Source: Deltaproteobacteria bacterium
GTDB taxonomy: Bacteria; Desulfobacterota; Desulfuromonadia; Desulfuromonadales; JAAYDE01
Direction of reading: 5' to 3'
DNA length: 34,608 bases
Assembly (NCBI GenBank): GCA_017552515.1
Contig: JAFZPK010000163.1
Coordinates: 1 to 34,608 of the forward strand
Positions 4,216 through 17,174 of this stretch are shown here, in pieces. The notes beneath the pieces are model-generated. The model worked only from the letters and a program-made list of their open reading frames with translations, was not told the origin of the DNA and made no database searches. Position numbers and translations under genes: made by a program. Within the stretch, counting starts at the first letter, position 1. Every line of letters begins with the position of its first letter.

Positions 4216-5190
4216 ATGAATATCTGGAAAACGTCGCTTATAACGCTGGTGCGGGAAACAGTGCGGGATGGCCTGAGTGCCAGCCTTGCCCTGTTTAAAG
4301 TGACGGTTCCGGTCAGCATTGTGGTCAAGCTGCTCAATGATGCCGGTTTCACCACGTTGCTGGGACAGGCGCTTGCTCCGGTCATGGAAGTGGTGGGGCT
4401 GCCTGGCAGTATGGGAATGGTCTGGGCAACCGGCATGGTGACCAATATCTACGGGGGGCTGGTGGTCTATGTGACTGTCGCGCCTCAGGAAGTGCTGACG
4501 GTTGCGCAGGTGACGGTACTGGGTGTCATGATGCTGGCGGCGCATTCGTTGCCGGTAGAACTGCGCATTGCCCGTATGGCGGGCATTCATTACAGCGTCA
4601 TGCTGTCGGTTAGACTGGGAGGGGCCTTTCTTCTGGGAAGCCTGCTTCATCGTATCTATCTTGCGGGCGACTGGTTGAGCGGGCCGGTACGGATTCTGAT
4701 GCCGCCCCTGGCAGCCCACACCTCGTGGGGGGACTGGGCCTTGCGTGAAGTACGTTCCATGGTGATCATCACTCTCATTATTACAGTCTTGATATTGCTC
4801 ATGCGAATATTGGAAAGAAGCGGCCTGATGCGGTTGCTCTGCCGGATGCTGGAGCCTCCTCTGCGCTGGCTGGGGATGACGGTCAACGCCGCACCGGTTA
4901 CGGTTATCGGCATGATGATGGGGGTCAGTTACGGTGGGGCCCTGATTCTTCAGGAGGCGCGTTCTGGACGAATGGACGCCCGCGACATCTTTCTTGCGCT
5001 GACACTTATGGGACTCTGTCACAGCCTGTTCGAGGATACGATGCTGATGGCCTTGATAGGAGGTCATCTTTCCGGTTTGCTGGTTGCCCGTCTGGGCTTT
5101 GCTCTTCTGGTCATTTTTCTTGCCGCGCGTCTCCTTCGCCGCATTCCGGAACAATTTTTCCGGCGTTTTATTTGTTCACCACCCAACTGA
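4216..5190 (+). CDS. Membrane protein with two nucleoside-recognition (Gate) domains
   Basis: The product has 324 residues and is almost entirely hydrophobic, with about eight transmembrane segments. Two halves look related: residues 20-150 (segment FKVTVPVSIVVKLL then LPGSMGMVWATGM) and residues 185-310 (ITLIITVLILLMRILERSG then GMMMGVSYGGALI). This is the arrangement of Gate-domain proteins such as SpmA/SpmB and YjiH relatives, which are often single-domain pairs. The second half contains GLCHSLFEDTMLMALIGGH, a recurrent signature in this family. The substrate is unknown; nucleosides are named only by homology. AGGGA lies 7 nt upstream of ATG. No terminator with a T-run follows before the mra promoter. 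Confidence 0.8.
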   Translation: MNIWKTSLITLVRETVRDGLSASLALFKVTVPVSIVVKLLNDAGFTTLLGQALAPVMEVVGLPGSMGMVWATGMVTNIYGGLVVYVTVAPQEVLTVAQVTVLGVMMLAAHSLPVELRIARMAGIHYSVMLSVRLGGAFLLGSLLHRIYLAGDWLSGPVRILMPPLAAHTSWGDWALREVRSMVIITLIITVLILLMRILERSGLMRLLCRMLEPPLRWLGMTVNAAPVTVIGMMMGVSYGGALILQEARSGRMDARDIFLALTLMGLCHSLFEDTMLMALIGGHLSGLLVARLGFALLVIFLAARLLRRIPEQFFRRFICSPPN

Positions 5191-9364: not shown

Positions 9365-10867
9365 ATGCGCATCAATGAACTGATAGAGGTGATGAAGCCG
9401 GTTACGGTGAGTGGTCCGTCGGATGTGAATGTTGACGGCCTGTTTTACGATTCGCGCAAGGTTTTGCCGGGCGGCGCGTTTTTCGCTTTACCCGGGGCGA
9501 AAGGCGACGGTTGCGATTATGTTGACGAGGCCTTGAAACGGGGCGCGGCGGCGGTGGTCAGCGAACGCATGCTGAAGTTGCCTCCCTCTGTTGCGGGAGT
9601 GGTGGTGAAGAACGCCCGTCATGCCATGGCGATGGCGGCGCTTCAATTTTTTGGGCATCCCTTGCGGGACATGATGGTCATCGGTGTCACGGGAACCAAT
9701 GGCAAGACCACGATTTCCTATCATCTGGAAGCGGTTTTGCGCGCTGCGGGACGCAAACCGGCGGTGCTGGGAACGATCAATTACCGCTATGGGGATTGTA
9801 TTTATACGGCATCGCACACCACCCCGGAAAGTATCGATCTGTTGGCGATGATTGCGGAATTCAAGCGTCTGGGGGCTGACAGCATCGTTATGGAAGTCTC
9901 TTCACATGGTTTGGATCAGCACCGAATTGACGGTTTTGAATTTGATGTTGCGGCCTTTACCAATCTTTCTCCCGAGCATCTGGACTATCACCACGATATG
10001 GAGAGCTATTTCCAGGTCAAGAAGCGGCTGTTTACGGATTTCATCAAGGAAGGCGGTCATGCGGCGATCAATGTGGATGATGCCTATGGAGCGCGGCTGG
10101 CTGGAGAAATCGCTGCCAATACGCTGACCTGTGGAAAGCAGGGCATGGTTCGTCCCGGTGCGGTAGAAAGTTCTTTCGATGGTATTCGTGGAACGCTGGA
10201 AACGCCGCGTGGAACGATGAAACTGGAGTCACGCCTGTTCGGCTCCTACAACTTGAGCAATCTGATGGTGACGACGGCTGTGGCGCTGGCGGCGGGTCTG
10301 CCTCTGGATGCGGTATCGGAGGGCATCCGTAGCGCGTATCAGGTGCCGGGCCGGCTGGAAAAGGTGGAGAATGCACTGGGAGCCACTGTTGTCGTGGATT
10401 ATGCCCATACCCCCGATGGATTGCGTTCGGTGCTGACGGCTTTGCGCGAACTGCGCCCGGCACGGATATTGGCGGTGTTTGGTTGCGGCGGGGATCGTGA
10501 TCGAAGCAAGCGGCCGCTTATGGGGGAAGCGGTTGCACAGTTGGCGGATTTGGTGATTTTGACGTCCGACAATCCGCGAAGTGAGGATCCGCTGGCGATC
10601 CTGGAAGAAATTAAGGCGGGAGTTGTGCCACTGGGGCGGGTGGAAAGGACGCCGGAAGCCTACGCGAAAGATCCGCAGAACGGTTTTGTGGCTTTACCGG
10701 ATCGTCGTGAGGCCATCCGCTATGCGGTTTCCCTGGTTCAGGCAGGCGATGTGCTGCTGATCGCGGGAAAGGGACATGAAACGTATCAGATTGTTGGCAG
10801 CAAACGGCTTCATTTTGACGATCGCGAGGAGGCATGCGCGGCGTTGCAGGAGAGGATGACACGGTGA
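9365..10867 (+). CDS. murE: UDP-MurNAc-tripeptide synthetase, meso-DAP-adding (MurE)
   Basis: The product has 500 residues. MurE ligates meso-diaminopimelate to UDP-MurNAc-L-Ala-D-Glu with ATP in the cytoplasm. The ATP loop GVTGTNGKTT is at 107-116, the carbamylated-lysine region VKKRLF is near 218-223, and DNPR at 402-405 marks specificity for meso-DAP rather than lysine, which fits a Gram-negative wall. GAAGGAG lies 13 nt upstream of ATG 9365, longer than usual, but no better in-frame start is present. The stop overlaps the GTG start of murF (GTGA). Confidence 0.96.
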   Translation: MRINELIEVMKPVTVSGPSDVNVDGLFYDSRKVLPGGAFFALPGAKGDGCDYVDEALKRGAAAVVSERMLKLPPSVAGVVVKNARHAMAMAALQFFGHPLRDMMVIGVTGTNGKTTISYHLEAVLRAAGRKPAVLGTINYRYGDCIYTASHTTPESIDLLAMIAEFKRLGADSIVMEVSSHGLDQHRIDGFEFDVAAFTNLSPEHLDYHHDMESYFQVKKRLFTDFIKEGGHAAINVDDAYGARLAGEIAANTLTCGKQGMVRPGAVESSFDGIRGTLETPRGTMKLESRLFGSYNLSNLMVTTAVALAAGLPLDAVSEGIRSAYQVPGRLEKVENALGATVVVDYAHTPDGLRSVLTALRELRPARILAVFGCGGDRDRSKRPLMGEAVAQLADLVILTSDNPRSEDPLAILEEIKAGVVPLGRVERTPEAYAKDPQNGFVALPDRREAIRYAVSLVQAGDVLLIAGKGHETYQIVGSKRLHFDDREEACAALQERMTR

Positions 10868-12249
10868 AAACACTGGATGTCCGCAAAATTGGTCGTATTG
10901 TCGGGGGAAAAGTCAGCCGGAGTGATGTGACGACGGAAGTCACGGGGTTTTCTGTCGACAGCCGGACAATTAAGGCTGGCGATCTGTTTATCCCTTTGAG
11001 AGGAGAGCGCTTCGACGGACACGATTTTTTGCTGGAAGCGGTGAGAAGAGGCGCGGTTGCCTGCCTCTCGGAAGAACCATGCGCAGGGTTGTCGGTGCCG
11101 GTCATTATGGTGCAGAACACGCTTGTGGCCTTGGGAGATATGGCGGCTGCGGCCCGGGGCGGATTTTCTGGCCCGGTGGTGGGTGTGACCGGTTCGGCAG
11201 GAAAATCGACGACCAAGGAAATGGTGTCCGCGATTCTTTCCCTTACGGGACCAGGCCTGAAGACTGAAGGCAACCTGAACAATCTGGTAGGTTTGCCGCT
11301 GACATTGGAGCGATTGGCTCCCGAACATCAGTGGATGGTACTGGAGATGGGCACCAGCCAGTTGGGCGAAATTGCGCGTTTGACGGAGATAGCACGTCCG
11401 ACGGTTGGGGTTATCACCAATATTGGTCCCAGCCATTTGACAGGTCTGCGGGGCCTGGACGGCGTCGCCCGTGCCAAGGCTGAACTGTTTGCTGGCCTGG
11501 TGGCGGGCAGTTGGGCTGTTATCAACGCGGACGATCCGCGAGTGCTGAAGATTCCGGTGGCCAACGGCGTAGAACGGCTGTTGTTCGGGATAAGCCCGGA
11601 GGCTCAGGTGCGTGCCGAAGAGATCGGCGTGACTGCGGATGGTGTCCGTTTTCTGCTGCGTTTGCCGGATGGTGGCGCTTATCCTGTGCAGCTTCCGGTG
11701 TATGGGCGGCACAACGTGGGCAATGCTTTGGCGGCCGCTGCCGTGGCTTTCTGCCTGAAAGTACCGCCAACGCTCATTGTGAAAGGTTTGGAGCAATTTT
11801 CGCCGATGCCGGCCCGTCTGGAGCTCTGTTCTTTGCCGAAGGATGTCGTTTTGCTGGATGATACCTACAATGCCAATCCGGCTTCGGTTGCGGCAGCGCT
11901 GGAAACACTGGCGGATATGACCGTTTCCGGCAGGAGAATAGCCGTGTTGGGCGATATGCTGGAACTGGGCGAATATTCGGCGGACATGCATTTCGAGGTG
12001 GGGCAGAAGGTGGCGAAACGGGCGGATTATCTGATTCTGCTGGGCACGGAAACGGCTGCTCTCCGGGCGGGAGCCCTCCATGATGGAATGGCCGAAGAAA
12101 ATATCTGGTGTTGCGCCGATCATGAAGAGGCTGCCGCGTGCTTGTTGAAACTGGTGCAGCCGGGAGATCGCATTTTGCTGAAGGGTTCGCGGAAGATGCG
12201 TATGGAACGGATCCGCGGTCTGTTTGCCGGGCAGTGGCAGGCTGACTGA
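10864..12249 (+). CDS. murF: UDP-MurNAc-tripeptide--D-Ala-D-Ala ligase (MurF)
   Basis: The product has 461 residues from the GTG at 10864. MurF adds the D-Ala-D-Ala dipeptide made by Ddl to the UDP-MurNAc-tripeptide. The ATP loop GVTGSAGKST is at 107-116, MGTSQLGEIARL in the central domain and LLDDTYNANPASV in the C-terminal domain are family marks. The GTG start was preferred because AGGAGAGG at 10848-10855 gives an 8-nt spacing and the start overlaps the murE stop. An in-frame ATG at 10834 has its SD only one base away. Confidence 0.95.
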   Translation: MKTLDVRKIGRIVGGKVSRSDVTTEVTGFSVDSRTIKAGDLFIPLRGERFDGHDFLLEAVRRGAVACLSEEPCAGLSVPVIMVQNTLVALGDMAAAARGGFSGPVVGVTGSAGKSTTKEMVSAILSLTGPGLKTEGNLNNLVGLPLTLERLAPEHQWMVLEMGTSQLGEIARLTEIARPTVGVITNIGPSHLTGLRGLDGVARAKAELFAGLVAGSWAVINADDPRVLKIPVANGVERLLFGISPEAQVRAEEIGVTADGVRFLLRLPDGGAYPVQLPVYGRHNVGNALAAAAVAFCLKVPPTLIVKGLEQFSPMPARLELCSLPKDVVLLDDTYNANPASVAAALETLADMTVSGRRIAVLGDMLELGEYSADMHFEVGQKVAKRADYLILLGTETAALRAGALHDGMAEENIWCCADHEEAAACLLKLVQPGDRILLKGSRKMRMERIRGLFAGQWQAD

Positions 12250-12340: not shown

Positions 12341-12394
12341 ATGGTTGAAGAATTTGGGTTGAAAGACGCTATTTACAAGGAAAGGTGCTTCTGA
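12341..12394 (+). CDS. Candidate 17-codon leader ORF coupled to mraY
   Basis: ATG 12341 is preceded by GAGGAG (12329-12334) at 6-nt spacing, a stronger SD than that of many genes here. The ORF encodes [17 protein letters not shown] and stops at TGA 12392-12394, whose last base is the first base of the mraY ATG (TGATG). This geometry favours translational coupling. Coding status is not proven; it is too short to judge by composition. The rest of the murF-mraY gap also holds an 11-codon ORF (12264-12299) with a poor SD. Confidence 0.45.
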
Positions 12395-13470
12395 TGCTGT
12401 ACCATCTGCTCTATCCACTTCATGTCCAGTTTTCCGGTTTCCATGTTTTCCGCTATATCACGTTTCGCTCCATCTATGCGGCCATTACTGCGCTGACAAT
12501 TTCTTTCGTTGTTGGTCCTTGGCTTATTGCCAAGTTGAGGAGGCTGCAAATCGGGCAGGAGATCCGCGAGCTGGGTCCGGAAAGCCACAAGAAAAAGGCC
12601 GGGACGCCGACAATGGGCGGGGTTCTGATTTTGGCTGCCATGGTGATACCCACGCTGCTGTGGGCGGATTTGCGCAATCTGTATGTATGGCTGGTACTGT
12701 TTGTCACGGTTGGATACGGTGCGGTGGGAGCGGTGGATGACTGGCGCAAGGTGGCCAAACACAACAGCGATGGATTGTCGGCGCGCGCCAAGATGCGCTG
12801 GATGACGCTGATTGCGGCGGTGCCTGCGTTGGTTTTATTTTTTCATCCGAACTTTCAGACAACATTGGCCTTTCCATTCCTTAAAAATCTGCGCCCGGAT
12901 TTGGGATTGTTCTTTGTCGTTTTTGCGGTTTTTGTTGTCGTCGGTTCCGGCAATTCGGTCAATTTGAGTGATGGTCTGGACGGTTTGGCAATGGGTCTCG
13001 TGACCATTGCTGCTTCAGTCTATGTGCTGTTTGCCTATCTGGCCGGCAATGCGCATCTGGCTTCCTATCTGCAGCTCAGCAGCGTACCGGGCGCGGGCGA
13101 GCTGGCGGTGTTCTGTTCGGCCATGGTGGGCGCGGGGCTGGGCTTTTTGTGGTTTAACGCCTATCCAGCCCAGATCTTCATGGGTGATACGGGCAGTCTG
13201 GCTCTGGGAGGCGCCCTGGGGATGGTGGCGATTGTGGTCAAGCAGGAACTCATGCTGGCGCTGGTGGGCGGTATTTTTGTCCTGGAAGCCTTGTCTGTCA
13301 TGTTGCAGGTGACTTCCTACAAGTTGTGGAAACGGCGGATATTCAAAATGGCGCCCTTGCATCATCATTTTGAACTGATGGGAATTGCAGAGCCCAAAAT
13401 TATTGTCCGCTTCTGGATCGTCAATATCATTCTGGCCTTACTGGCAATCTCGACGCTGAAATTGAGGTGA
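12394..13470 (+). CDS. mraY: Phospho-MurNAc-pentapeptide transferase (MraY)
   Basis: The product has 358 residues and about ten membrane spans. MraY transfers phospho-MurNAc-pentapeptide from UDP to undecaprenyl phosphate, making lipid I at the inner leaflet. Family motifs are [16 protein letters not shown] near the first cytoplasmic loop, [10 protein letters not shown] (paired Asp), [35 protein letters not shown] and [12 protein letters not shown] 12394 was chosen over the in-frame GTG at 12385 because AAGGAAAGG (12377-12385) then sits 8 nt away and the start matches MraY N-termini. In most dcw clusters murD follows; here ftsW follows after 69 bp. Confidence 0.96.
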
Positions 13471-13539
13471 CATAAAACAAGTTTTTCGGAGCTAGGTGCC
13501 AACAGAAAAAAACTTTTTCAATTGTGATGAAGAGGACAG

Positions 13540-14700
13540 ATGTCGGAACTCGGAAATATTGCTCAGCCTAAGACGGGAACACTGGCTGGAAATTTTGACA
13601 TGACCATTTTGCTGATAGTGGTGGTACTCAGCTGTCTGGGGGTGGTGATGGTCTATTCGGCCTCCGCGGTCATGGCTATGGAACAGGCTCGCTGCAATCA
13701 CGACAGTTTCTTTTTCTTCAAGAGACAGGGCGTATTCGTGACAATGGGCCTGATCGCGATGGTTGTGACGATGTTTTACGATTATCACAAGTTGCGTCCC
13801 TTCGCGATGCCGTTGTTGTTGGGCTGTATTGTGTTGCTGTCTCTGCTTTTGGTACCGGGACTGGGGCATTCGGCCAATGGATCGGTACGCTGGTTTCGGT
13901 TGGGAGGTTTTTCTTTCCAGCCTTCGGAATTGGCCAAGCTGTCGCTGATTTTGTATCTGGCGCATTCCCTGACCAAGAGGAAGGAGAAAATAGGCGGTTT
14001 TCTGCTTGGATTTTTGCCCTATACGGTGATGCTGGTTGTGTTGCTGGGGCTGATTCTGATGGAACCCGATCTGGGCAGTGCGGTCGTGGTGGGCACGGTG
14101 GGCGCCACCATCATGTTTGTGGCAGGTGTCAAGTTCCGGTATCTGCTGCTGGCGGCAATAACTGGTGGGCCGTTGCTCTATATGGCGATAGTCAGGGTAC
14201 CCTACAGACGGGAGCGCCTGCTGGCCTTCCTTAACCCCTGGGCTACTCCGGATACATCAGGCTATCAGATTATCCAGAGCCAGATTGCCTTTGACAGTGG
14301 AGGTTTCTGGGGACAGGGACTGGGACAGGGCATTCAGAAGCTGTTCTATCTCCCGGAGGCACACACCGATTTTATCTTTTCCGTTCTGGGAGAAGAACTG
14401 GGTTTTGTCGGAGTGTTGGCAGTGGCCGGGATGTTTCTGGCCTTGGTGCTTCTGGGATTGCGGGTGGCGTTGCATACTGCCGATGCTTTTGGACGTTATC
14501 TGGCGGTAGGAACAACGGTACTTGTTGGGCTGGAGGCTTTTTTGAATATTGCGGTGGTGCTGGGCATGTTGCCGCCCAAAGGCATGGCGCTGCCATTTAT
14601 TTCCTATGGCGGTTCCAGTTTGATGTGCTGTTTGTTGGCGGTGGGGCTGTTGTTAAGCGTTTCCCGCTACGGTGAGCGGGAGGTGGAGAAGAACTCGTGA
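13540..14700 (+). CDS. ftsW: SEDS peptidoglycan glycosyltransferase FtsW
   Basis: The product has 386 residues with about ten membrane spans. FtsW polymerises lipid II at the septum together with FtsI. Landmarks are VVMVYSASAVMA in the first span region, HSANGSVRWFRLGGFSFQPSELAKL, LMEPDLGSAVVV, LAFLNPWATPDTSGYQI, and GLGQGIQKLFYLPEAHTDFIF, which are standard SEDS motifs including the periplasmic loop with the catalytic Asp region. It lacks the long N-terminal tail of some FtsW. GAAGAGG ends about 4 nt before the ATG. The stop overlaps the murG GTG start. Confidence 0.95.
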   Translation: MSELGNIAQPKTGTLAGNFDMTILLIVVVLSCLGVVMVYSASAVMAMEQARCNHDSFFFFKRQGVFVTMGLIAMVVTMFYDYHKLRPFAMPLLLGCIVLLSLLLVPGLGHSANGSVRWFRLGGFSFQPSELAKLSLILYLAHSLTKRKEKIGGFLLGFLPYTVMLVVLLGLILMEPDLGSAVVVGTVGATIMFVAGVKFRYLLLAAITGGPLLYMAIVRVPYRRERLLAFLNPWATPDTSGYQIIQSQIAFDSGGFWGQGLGQGIQKLFYLPEAHTDFIFSVLGEELGFVGVLAVAGMFLALVLLGLRVALHTADAFGRYLAVGTTVLVGLEAFLNIAVVLGMLPPKGMALPFISYGGSSLMCCLLAVGLLLSVSRYGEREVEKNS

Positions 14701-15800: not shown

Positions 15801-17174
15801 ATGTACGGTAGAATTCGCAATATTCATTTTGTGGGCATTGGCGGCATTGGCATGAGCGGGATCGCCGAATTGCTGATCAATCTTGGCTATAATGTTTCGG
15901 GGTCCGATTTGCGGGAAAGTGACATTACCCGGCGTCTGGCACAACTGGGTGGACGCATCTCGTTGGGACATTCTGGAGAGAATGTGCAGGACGCTGATGT
16001 GGTGGTGGCCTCAACTGCGGTGCGTGCCGACAATCCGGAGATAGTTGCAGCCCGGCAACGGATGATACCTGTCATTCCGCGCGCGGAGATGCTGGCCGAG
16101 TTGATGCGCATGAAGCATGGCATCGCGGTGGCCGGGGCTCATGGCAAGACGACCACCACCAGTATGATTGCGTGGGTACTTTTCAGTTGCGGCGTCGATC
16201 CGACTGCGGTCATTGGTGGACGTTTTGATGCCCTGGGGTCCAACGCCAAACTGGGGCAGGGCAATTTTCTGGTGGCGGAGGCCGATGAATCGGATGGATC
16301 GTTTTTACGGCTCAGCCCGGTTATCGCCGTGGTGACCAATATTGATGCAGAACATCTCGACTACTATCGGGATCTGGATCACATCAAGCAGAGCTTTGCC
16401 GATTTCATTAACAAGATTCCTTTTTTTGGTCTTGCAGTCCTCTGTTTTGACGATCCCAATGTCCAGTCGCTGATTCCCAAGGTGCAGAAACGGTTTACCA
16501 CCTACGGTTTCAATCCGCAGGCGGATTACTGTGCTTCCAACATTTCCGGCACCTGTTTCAACACCACCTTTACACTCTCTTTCAAAGGAGAAGAGATTTG
16601 CGAAGTGATGCTGAAAGTGCCGGGCAAGCACAATGCACTGAATGCGTTGGCTGCAATCGCGGTAGGCAGGGAATTGAATTTGCCATTTGCGGACATTGTT
16701 AACGCGCTTCAGTCGTTTTGCGGTGTGCGGCGGCGTTTTCAGCTGCGCCATGAGGGCGAAGGTATCATGGTGGTGGACGATTATGCGCATCATCCGACCG
16801 AAATTCGGGCGACATTGGCAGCGGCCCGTGCCGGTTGGGACAAACGCCTGATAGTAGTGTTTCAGCCGCATCGCTATACTCGTACCCAGGCGTTGTTCAG
16901 CGAGTTTCTGACGGCATTTTACGATGCTGACGAGTTGCTGGTGCTGGATATCTATCCCGCAGGAGAAGATCCTCTTGAGGGTGTGTCCGCGCGGCATTTG
17001 GCAGAGGGAATCCGCACCCATGGCCACAAGAATTGCCGGTTTTGCGCCTCAGGTGAAGAGGCGGTTGACATTTTGCTGCGGGATGTTGCCTCCGGCGATC
17101 TGGTACTGACTTTGGGAGCGGGCAACGTCTGGCAAACAGGTGATGCCTTTGCGCAGCGGCGCGGTTTGCCCTGA
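15801..17174 (+). CDS. murC: UDP-MurNAc--L-alanine ligase (MurC)
   Basis: The product has 457 residues. MurC adds L-alanine to UDP-MurNAc, the first amino-acid step. The N-terminal Rossmann domain begins [18 protein letters not shown], the ATP loop [10 protein letters not shown] is at 111-120, [10 protein letters not shown] lies in the central domain, and [16 protein letters not shown] and FQPHRYTRT mark the C-terminal domain. GAGGA ends 4 nt before the ATG. The stop and the murB start share one base (TGATG). Confidence 0.96.

Follow-up and report, generated by a model that had tools for sequence, protein, structure and literature searches.

The stretch analyzed here (the window; 34,608 bp) is an entire contig, C195, of a metagenome-assembled genome (MAG) of a Desulfuromonadales bacterium, and it carries a division and cell wall (dcw) cluster from which murD, the gene of the ligase that adds D-glutamate (D-Glu) to the peptidoglycan precursor, is missing. 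The genome, G000, is a single MAG of 1.66 Mb in 205 contigs, 83.9% complete and 3.57% contaminated. Family models found mraZ, rsmH, ftsL, the gene of an FtsI-type penicillin-binding protein, murE, murF, mraY, ftsW, murG, murC, murB, ddl, ftsQ, ftsA, and ftsZ in the window in this order, which bears out the initial annotation, where murD was described as absent from an otherwise complete mraZ-to-ftsZ cluster. Also as described there, mraY and ftsW are separated by exactly 69 bp with no ligase remnant, and MurC, MurE, and MurF have the normal length of single-domain enzymes (Table 1). These lengths, together with the family models, rule out a fusion of murD into any of the three.

The start of the 69-bp spacer looks like the scar of a murD deletion, since it resembles the region around the murD start in a relative, G025. 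The mraY stop and the first bases of the spacer read TGACATAAAAC, and the same place in G025 reads TGACATGAAAC, in which the ATG is the murD start; the scar consists of the mraY stop plus CATAAAAC, with CATGAAAC as its counterpart in G025. RNA folding of the spacer gave nothing unusual (z 0.21), and no Rfam family matched in the window. Among the four genomes of the family (G000, G006, G025, and G045), a canonical murD lies between mraY and ftsW in G006 (408 bits) and G025 (440 bits), and G045 has no readable dcw cluster. At the level of the order, 72 of 78 genomes have a MurD over the cut-off (a count of presence, not of gene order). The loss of murD is specific to G000 among the genomes compared.

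The initial annotation had supposed that murD must be elsewhere, fused to another gene, or replaced, and had suggested a genome-wide search for a homolog and its neighbors. No fusion was seen, but replacement stood up: the search found a divergent MurD of a different type on another contig, C107, where it adjoins a CapA-like gene and takes the place that murI has in a relative. No other MurD of the bin passed the cut-off, the remaining matches being of the MurC, MurE, or MurF type. Contig C107 shares the gene order ileS, PHP gene, X, GerMN gene, metH with contig C4 of G006, where X is murI (C4:10780-11502, 250 bits); in G025, murI adjoins GerMN-metH on contig C83. In G000, X is a two-gene cassette of the ligase and the CapA-like gene, located between the PHP gene and GerMN-metH. 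A murI search of the whole bin, an 84% complete genome, returned 0 matches (no search for a D-amino-acid transaminase was made). Since the murD slot is empty and the murI slot holds the cassette, both being filled canonically in relatives, two native genes of one metabolic step have been lost from two separate conserved places, one of which was refilled by the cassette. The initial annotation thus missed the wider point, which is that the supply of D-glutamate has changed together with the ligase.

TABLE 1 Coordinates of the dcw genes next to the missing step (positions in the window) and of the cassette on contig C107
Feature	Location	Strand	Match or remark
mraY, left flank of the missing murD	12385..13470	+	TIGR00445, 430 bits
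Apparent murD deletion site, 69 bp	13471..13539	+	murD-start-like scar at its beginning; no fold beyond chance
ftsW, right flank of the missing murD	13540..14700	+	TIGR02614, 411 bits
murC, 457 aa, step before the missing one (L-Ala addition)	15801..17174	+	TIGR01082, 562 bits
murE, 500 aa, step after the missing one; expected to need the D-Glu product	9365..10867	+	NF001126, 519 bits
murF, 471 aa, ordinary, no fusion	10834..12249	+	TIGR01143, 410 bits
Putative MurD2-type ligase, 398 aa	L037:13682-14878, contig C107		TIGR01087, 229.7 bits in the genome search, 241 bits as protein
CapA-like PGA_cap protein, 387 aa	L037:14934-16097, contig C107	same as ligase	55 bp after the ligase; PF09587, 158 bits

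Contig C107 is native to G000, because its ileS and metH are close to those of G006 (75% and 68% identity, respectively) and G025 (74% and 65%) and its gene order is shared with G006. The mraY of the window, 74% identical to that of G006, is about as close as the ileS of C107. The genes at the right end of C107 first looked Firmicutes-like, and a contaminant origin was considered and ruled out by the synteny with G006. Contig composition gave no strong signal for or against C107 belonging to the genome: its tetranucleotide correlation with the window is 0.69, and that of other bin stretches with sequence ranges from 0.47 to 0.84. The GC content of the cassette (0.57-0.59) and its GC3 (0.76-0.78) fall inside the range of its contig; therefore, if the cassette was transferred, this would not have been very recent, or the source had a similar composition.

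In a scan of named genomes, the nearest kin of the C107 ligase were in Lachnospiraceae MAGs at all 12 loci (55-61% identity), several of them named as rumen or omasum samples. Among the best matches in 395 genomes of the phylum of G000 there was no close ligase relative; the best other one was 34% identical, and 10 genomes had no match at all. A CapA-like gene follows the ligase at nine of the 12 loci, 62.9-67.4% identical to the C107 copy; of the rest, L095 and L096 have none after the ligase, and L092 lies at a contig end, where the partner is not visible. In 10 of the 12 genomes, no MurD other than the clade ligase passes the cut-off. Viral contigs held no relatives of the CapA-like protein and plasmids only distant ones (<60% identity, none covering 80%), and relatives of the ligase in viral contigs and plasmids were distant MurDs only. 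The cassette was apparently acquired horizontally, from gut Lachnospiraceae.

Residues known to govern the choice of glutamate enantiomer point in the same direction. The preference of Xanthomonas oryzae MurD2 for L-Glu is determined by E197 and R358 (D182 and K348 in E. coli), and changing K319 of E. coli MurD admits L-Glu (PMC8788868). We compared 19 members of the clade of the C107 ligase with 92 other MurDs (residues in E. coli numbering; L097, whose ligase match is in two pieces, left out). R348 and I319 are present in 19/19 clade members, while the other MurDs have K348 in 92/92 and K319 in 88/92. E182 is found in 15 of the 19, including the C107 ligase and all the CapA-linked ligases compared. 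The MurD2 of Xanthomonas sacchari, which adjoins its murL, reads E182, I319, S320, T321, and R348, so that the C107 ligase agrees with it in all three positions (E182, I319, R348). The C107 ligase also keeps residues of the MurD fold and catalysis (N138, E157, H183, K198, N268, H301, R302, D317, S318, T321, S415, and F422), and its structure model has a pLDDT of 87.5. A tree of 27 chosen rows, from which L097 was again omitted, splits the clade plus X. sacchari from the rest with support 95/92, the X. sacchari branch being very long. Considering that the residues played no part in choosing the genomes, the signature is independent support for L-Glu, and the C107 MurD would be a ligase of the L-Glu-adding MurD2 type.

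Some other ligases and loci came up in these comparisons. A second ligase-like frame of G000, on contig C172, was rejected as a MurD, with 106 bits, under the murD cut-off, and a MurF-like appearance; this frame (C172:2-1288, L003) is cut by the contig start and is followed, by eye, by a YitT-like membrane protein. The MurDs of L058, L060, L064, and L069 (genomes G179, G401, G384, and G455; family f77 of the phylum of G000) have T319-S320 and not K319, read N-A-D where other MurDs read S-P-G, and are encoded away from a dcw cluster, in the vicinity of pheT and of merR-type and methionine aminopeptidase-like frames (by eye); they are possibly another unusual MurD. The X. sacchari record NZ_CP010410.1 (L210; 509 kb), labeled as a plasmid, carries murL, murD2, and other core genes, and could be a chromid or a piece of the chromosome. 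In the window, a 324-aa frame upstream of mraZ (4216-5190) had no NCBIfam match at 1e-10.

The loss of the racemase gene follows the MurD clade. We scanned 100 Lachnospiraceae genomes for MurD and tested 80 of them for murI, including all eight genomes named next. Eight of the 100 (G466, G511, G499, G480, G495, G553, G556, and G560) have only a low-scoring clade MurD (246 to 324 bits), 35-60% identical to the C107 ligase. murI over the cut-off was present in 0/8 of these vs 70/72 of the others (Fisher P = 1.6e-9, or 1.2e-8 without G466, the center of the sample), with G531, where only a MurD fragment was seen, counted among the 72. G512 and G516, the two exceptions among the 72, have a canonical-looking MurD, cut short in G512, and no murI over the cut-off. 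Within the 12 genomes with cassette kin, murI was over the cut-off in one (G465), four had weak matches of 28 to 40 bits, and seven had none; similarly weak additional matches appear in genomes that do have a true murI.

The gene beside the clade MurD in G499, G472, G480, and G560 codes for MurL (NF041275, 241-266 bits; the cut-off that comes with this model, 700, is set for Xanthomonadales), and the same holds for G473. In a search of 80 genomes, MurL was detected in these five only, each time beside a clade MurD. By this model it is present in 2/2 of the MurL-linked genomes of the 12-locus set and in 0/9 of those with the CapA-linked form, and it was not found in G000, G006, or G025 either. 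No CapA-like gene was found beside the MurD of G511, G499, G480, G495, G553, G556, or G560 within the stretches fetched. In a maximum-likelihood tree, the CapA-linked ligases and that of G000 form one branch (support 99/95) nested among the MurL-linked ones. The tree has 31 chosen rows, with L097 left out and L092, the locus with no visible partner, inside the CapA-linked branch, and it comes with a long-branch warning, the long branches meeting at the canonical side. The plain reading of the tree would be that MurL is the ancestral partner and that the CapA-like protein replaced it once, before or with the transfer to the G000 lineage. Beside the MurD of G553 there is a 246-aa frame (L195:8286-9026) with weak similarity to the start of MurL, about its first third (28.7% over 122 aa); it may be a split or decayed MurL.

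The best match of the CapA-like protein in the PDB is MslH (1.8e-10 by sequence, 5.6e-13 with a profile). Searching with its structure model, Foldseek placed MslH at ranks 1-4 (8.3e-12), and VIA-align of the model against MslH gave a Z of 18.0 (rmsd 3.9, 278 aligned residues, ~20% identity), with the next fold at Z 12.0. MslH is a lasso peptide epimerase that inverts a C-terminal Trp and needs D11, E44, N87, H88, D91, H259, H261, and H295 (PMC10406935). The equivalents in the CapA-like protein are D12, E48, N91, H92, D95, H186, G188, and H220, constant in all the rows that reach them of a nine-row alignment (without L097). Hence, seven of the eight active-site positions of MslH are kept, including both catalytic His/Asp pairs; D11 and D12 were paired by motif and not by the hidden Markov model alignment. 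Acting on a C-terminal residue (PMC10406935) makes MslH similar to what we propose below, and the difference is in the substrate, Trp of a ribosomal peptide for MslH, while the G000 protein partners a Mur ligase. The protein begins MKNETKLVFTGDIGFD, and its metal motif is already at residue 12, which leaves no space ahead of it for a signal or an anchor in the membrane; the protein should therefore be cytoplasmic, where the proposed substrate is.

CapA and PgsA act with CapB and CapC at the membrane in poly-gamma-glutamate synthesis. The PGA_cap domain (PF09587) is common to them and to the G000 protein, which differs in having no room for a membrane anchor and in having neighbors on C107 that are, by eye, not CapB or CapC. 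PgsA, which we take to be a CapA family member, is relevant to the proposed chemistry. In Bacillus subtilis without PgsA, the D/L ratio of poly-glutamate is 5/95 instead of 75/25 (PMC6029982). Epimerase activity of PgsA would also explain the L-rich polymer, which we mention as a hint from analogy.

The deletion, the cassette and its position, the results of the murI and MurL searches, the residue signature, and the swap of partners in the tree are observed, and we consider it probable that they reflect a horizontally acquired MurD2 with a CapA-type epimerase that stands in for MurL and has displaced both murD and murI. The two-gene cassette of C107 would have arrived by horizontal transfer and come to occupy the murI slot. 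Its MurD2-type ligase would attach L-Glu first, and the CapA-like protein would then turn this C-terminal residue into D-Glu by MslH-like, metal-dependent acid/base chemistry and so fill the role that MurL has in Xanthomonas, after which MurE could continue as usual. With this route in place, neither murD nor murI would be needed, and murD would have been deleted from the dcw operon because its step had been taken over. We infer the substrate, stereochemistry, epimerase activity, and metal of the cassette enzymes from their sequences.

Two known systems carry out the same step. Canonical MurD plus MurI are both held by G006 and G025, at the sites that are empty or refilled in G000, and neither gene turned up in the G000 assembly. 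The MurD2-MurL pathway is similar in that no murI was found in G000, in the E182/I319/R348 type of MurD as checked on X. sacchari MurD2, in the arrangement of ligase and presumed epimerase as two adjacent genes, and in that Lachnospiraceae clade members adjoin MurL. It differs in the partner, which in G000 is a PGA_cap/CapA-like protein, with family matches only to PGA_cap and MslH-type proteins, and not MurL; moreover, the lineage of G000 and the Lachnospiraceae are both outside the taxa listed for the pathway in the accessible text of PMC8788868.

Several points weigh against this explanation. G000 is an incomplete MAG, and the portion not recovered could contain murI, murL, or a D-amino-acid transaminase. 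The structure model of the CapA-like protein has a mean pLDDT of 56 and was therefore used for fold ranking only, and the MslH metal ligand H261 is G in 9/9 CapA-like rows, which leaves three of the four metal ligands. As for the ligase, residue 182 is D in 4 of the 19 clade members (L095, L096, G499, and G556). G465 carries the cassette together with a canonical murD and murI, and G474 carries it with a canonical murD; the two genomes could represent intermediate stages, or their bins could be mixed. Four genomes with a clade MurD, G511 (L186), G495 (L194), G553 (L195), and G556 (L196), lack an adjacent CapA-like gene, a match to the MurL model, and a murI above the cut-off; therefore, another route must exist there, and a further epimerase may be involved. 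Finally, the authors of PMC6029982 suspect contacts with a racemase or a change of shape and not an epimerase activity of PgsA.

A simple xenologous replacement, in which Lachnospiraceae contributed an ordinary D-Glu ligase (the C107 MurD), a transaminase or an unspecific racemase supplies the D-Glu, and the CapA-like gene came along as an unrelated passenger, would fit the score of the ligase, which is over the murD cut-off (241 bits) with the catalytic residues all kept, as well as an incomplete genome and a murI search that did not extend to transaminases. We find it rather unlikely, given that R348 and I319 occur in 19/19 clade members and match Xanthomonas MurD2, that the loss of murI tracks the MurD clade (0/8 vs 70/72), that relatives of the ligase adjoin MurL, and that the cassette sits exactly in the murI slot. 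Unlikely, too, is that the ligase is of the MurD2 type and the inversion is due to an epimerase, MurL or another, encoded in unassembled DNA, with the CapA-like protein doing something else, such as dephosphorylation. A genome that is 84% complete could hide such a gene, and the four clade-MurD Lachnospiraceae with no findable epimerase suggest that unknown epimerases may exist. However, MurL is present in 0/9 CapA-linked Lachnospiraceae vs 2/2 MurL-linked ones, the CapA-like gene traveled with the ligase into another lineage, and its product has an epimerase as best structural match. That murD was dropped from the dcw contig and that C107 is foreign, an assembly or binning artifact to which a MAG of 205 contigs without reads and the correlation of only 0.69 would lend themselves, is very improbable, since murI, likewise native and serving this step, is gone from its own conserved slot too, the correlation lies within the spread of other bin stretches, the C107 flanks are as close to the family as the dcw genes of the window, the GC and GC3 of the cassette are within the contig range, and at the junction both the stop of mraY and the start of ftsW are retained, along with the scar.

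Peptidoglycan nearly always carries D-Glu at position 2. Three supplies of it are given in a review, a racemase, a transaminase, and MurD2/MurL (PMC8788868). Synthesis with L-Glu first is already known as MurD2/MurL; what would be new is a PGA_cap protein in place of MurL, its occurrence in a further lineage, and the fact that murD and murI were both displaced. A pairing of MurD2 with PGA_cap was not found in the titles and starts of abstracts of the open-access literature (most subscription papers and bioRxiv being outside this scope). We think it reasonably likely that this is a further D-Glu route, consisting of MurD2 and a cytoplasmic PGA_cap (CapA/MslH-type) epimerase, that arose inside the Lachnospiraceae, crossed the phylum boundary, and displaced murD and murI, and that, by extension, CapA and PgsA would be chain-end glutamate epimerases.

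G000 is a clear case of an essential gene pair of a core pathway displaced across lineages by one cassette. If the proposed route is true, wall synthesis that begins with L-Glu has been reassembled around another enzyme, a second, unrelated epimerase having replaced MurL, and the PGA_cap family would gain a testable function. As chain-end epimerases, CapA and PgsA would explain the source of D-Glu in poly-glutamate synthesis. For the gut Lachnospiraceae, the route would offer a narrow-spectrum target and a biochemical handle.
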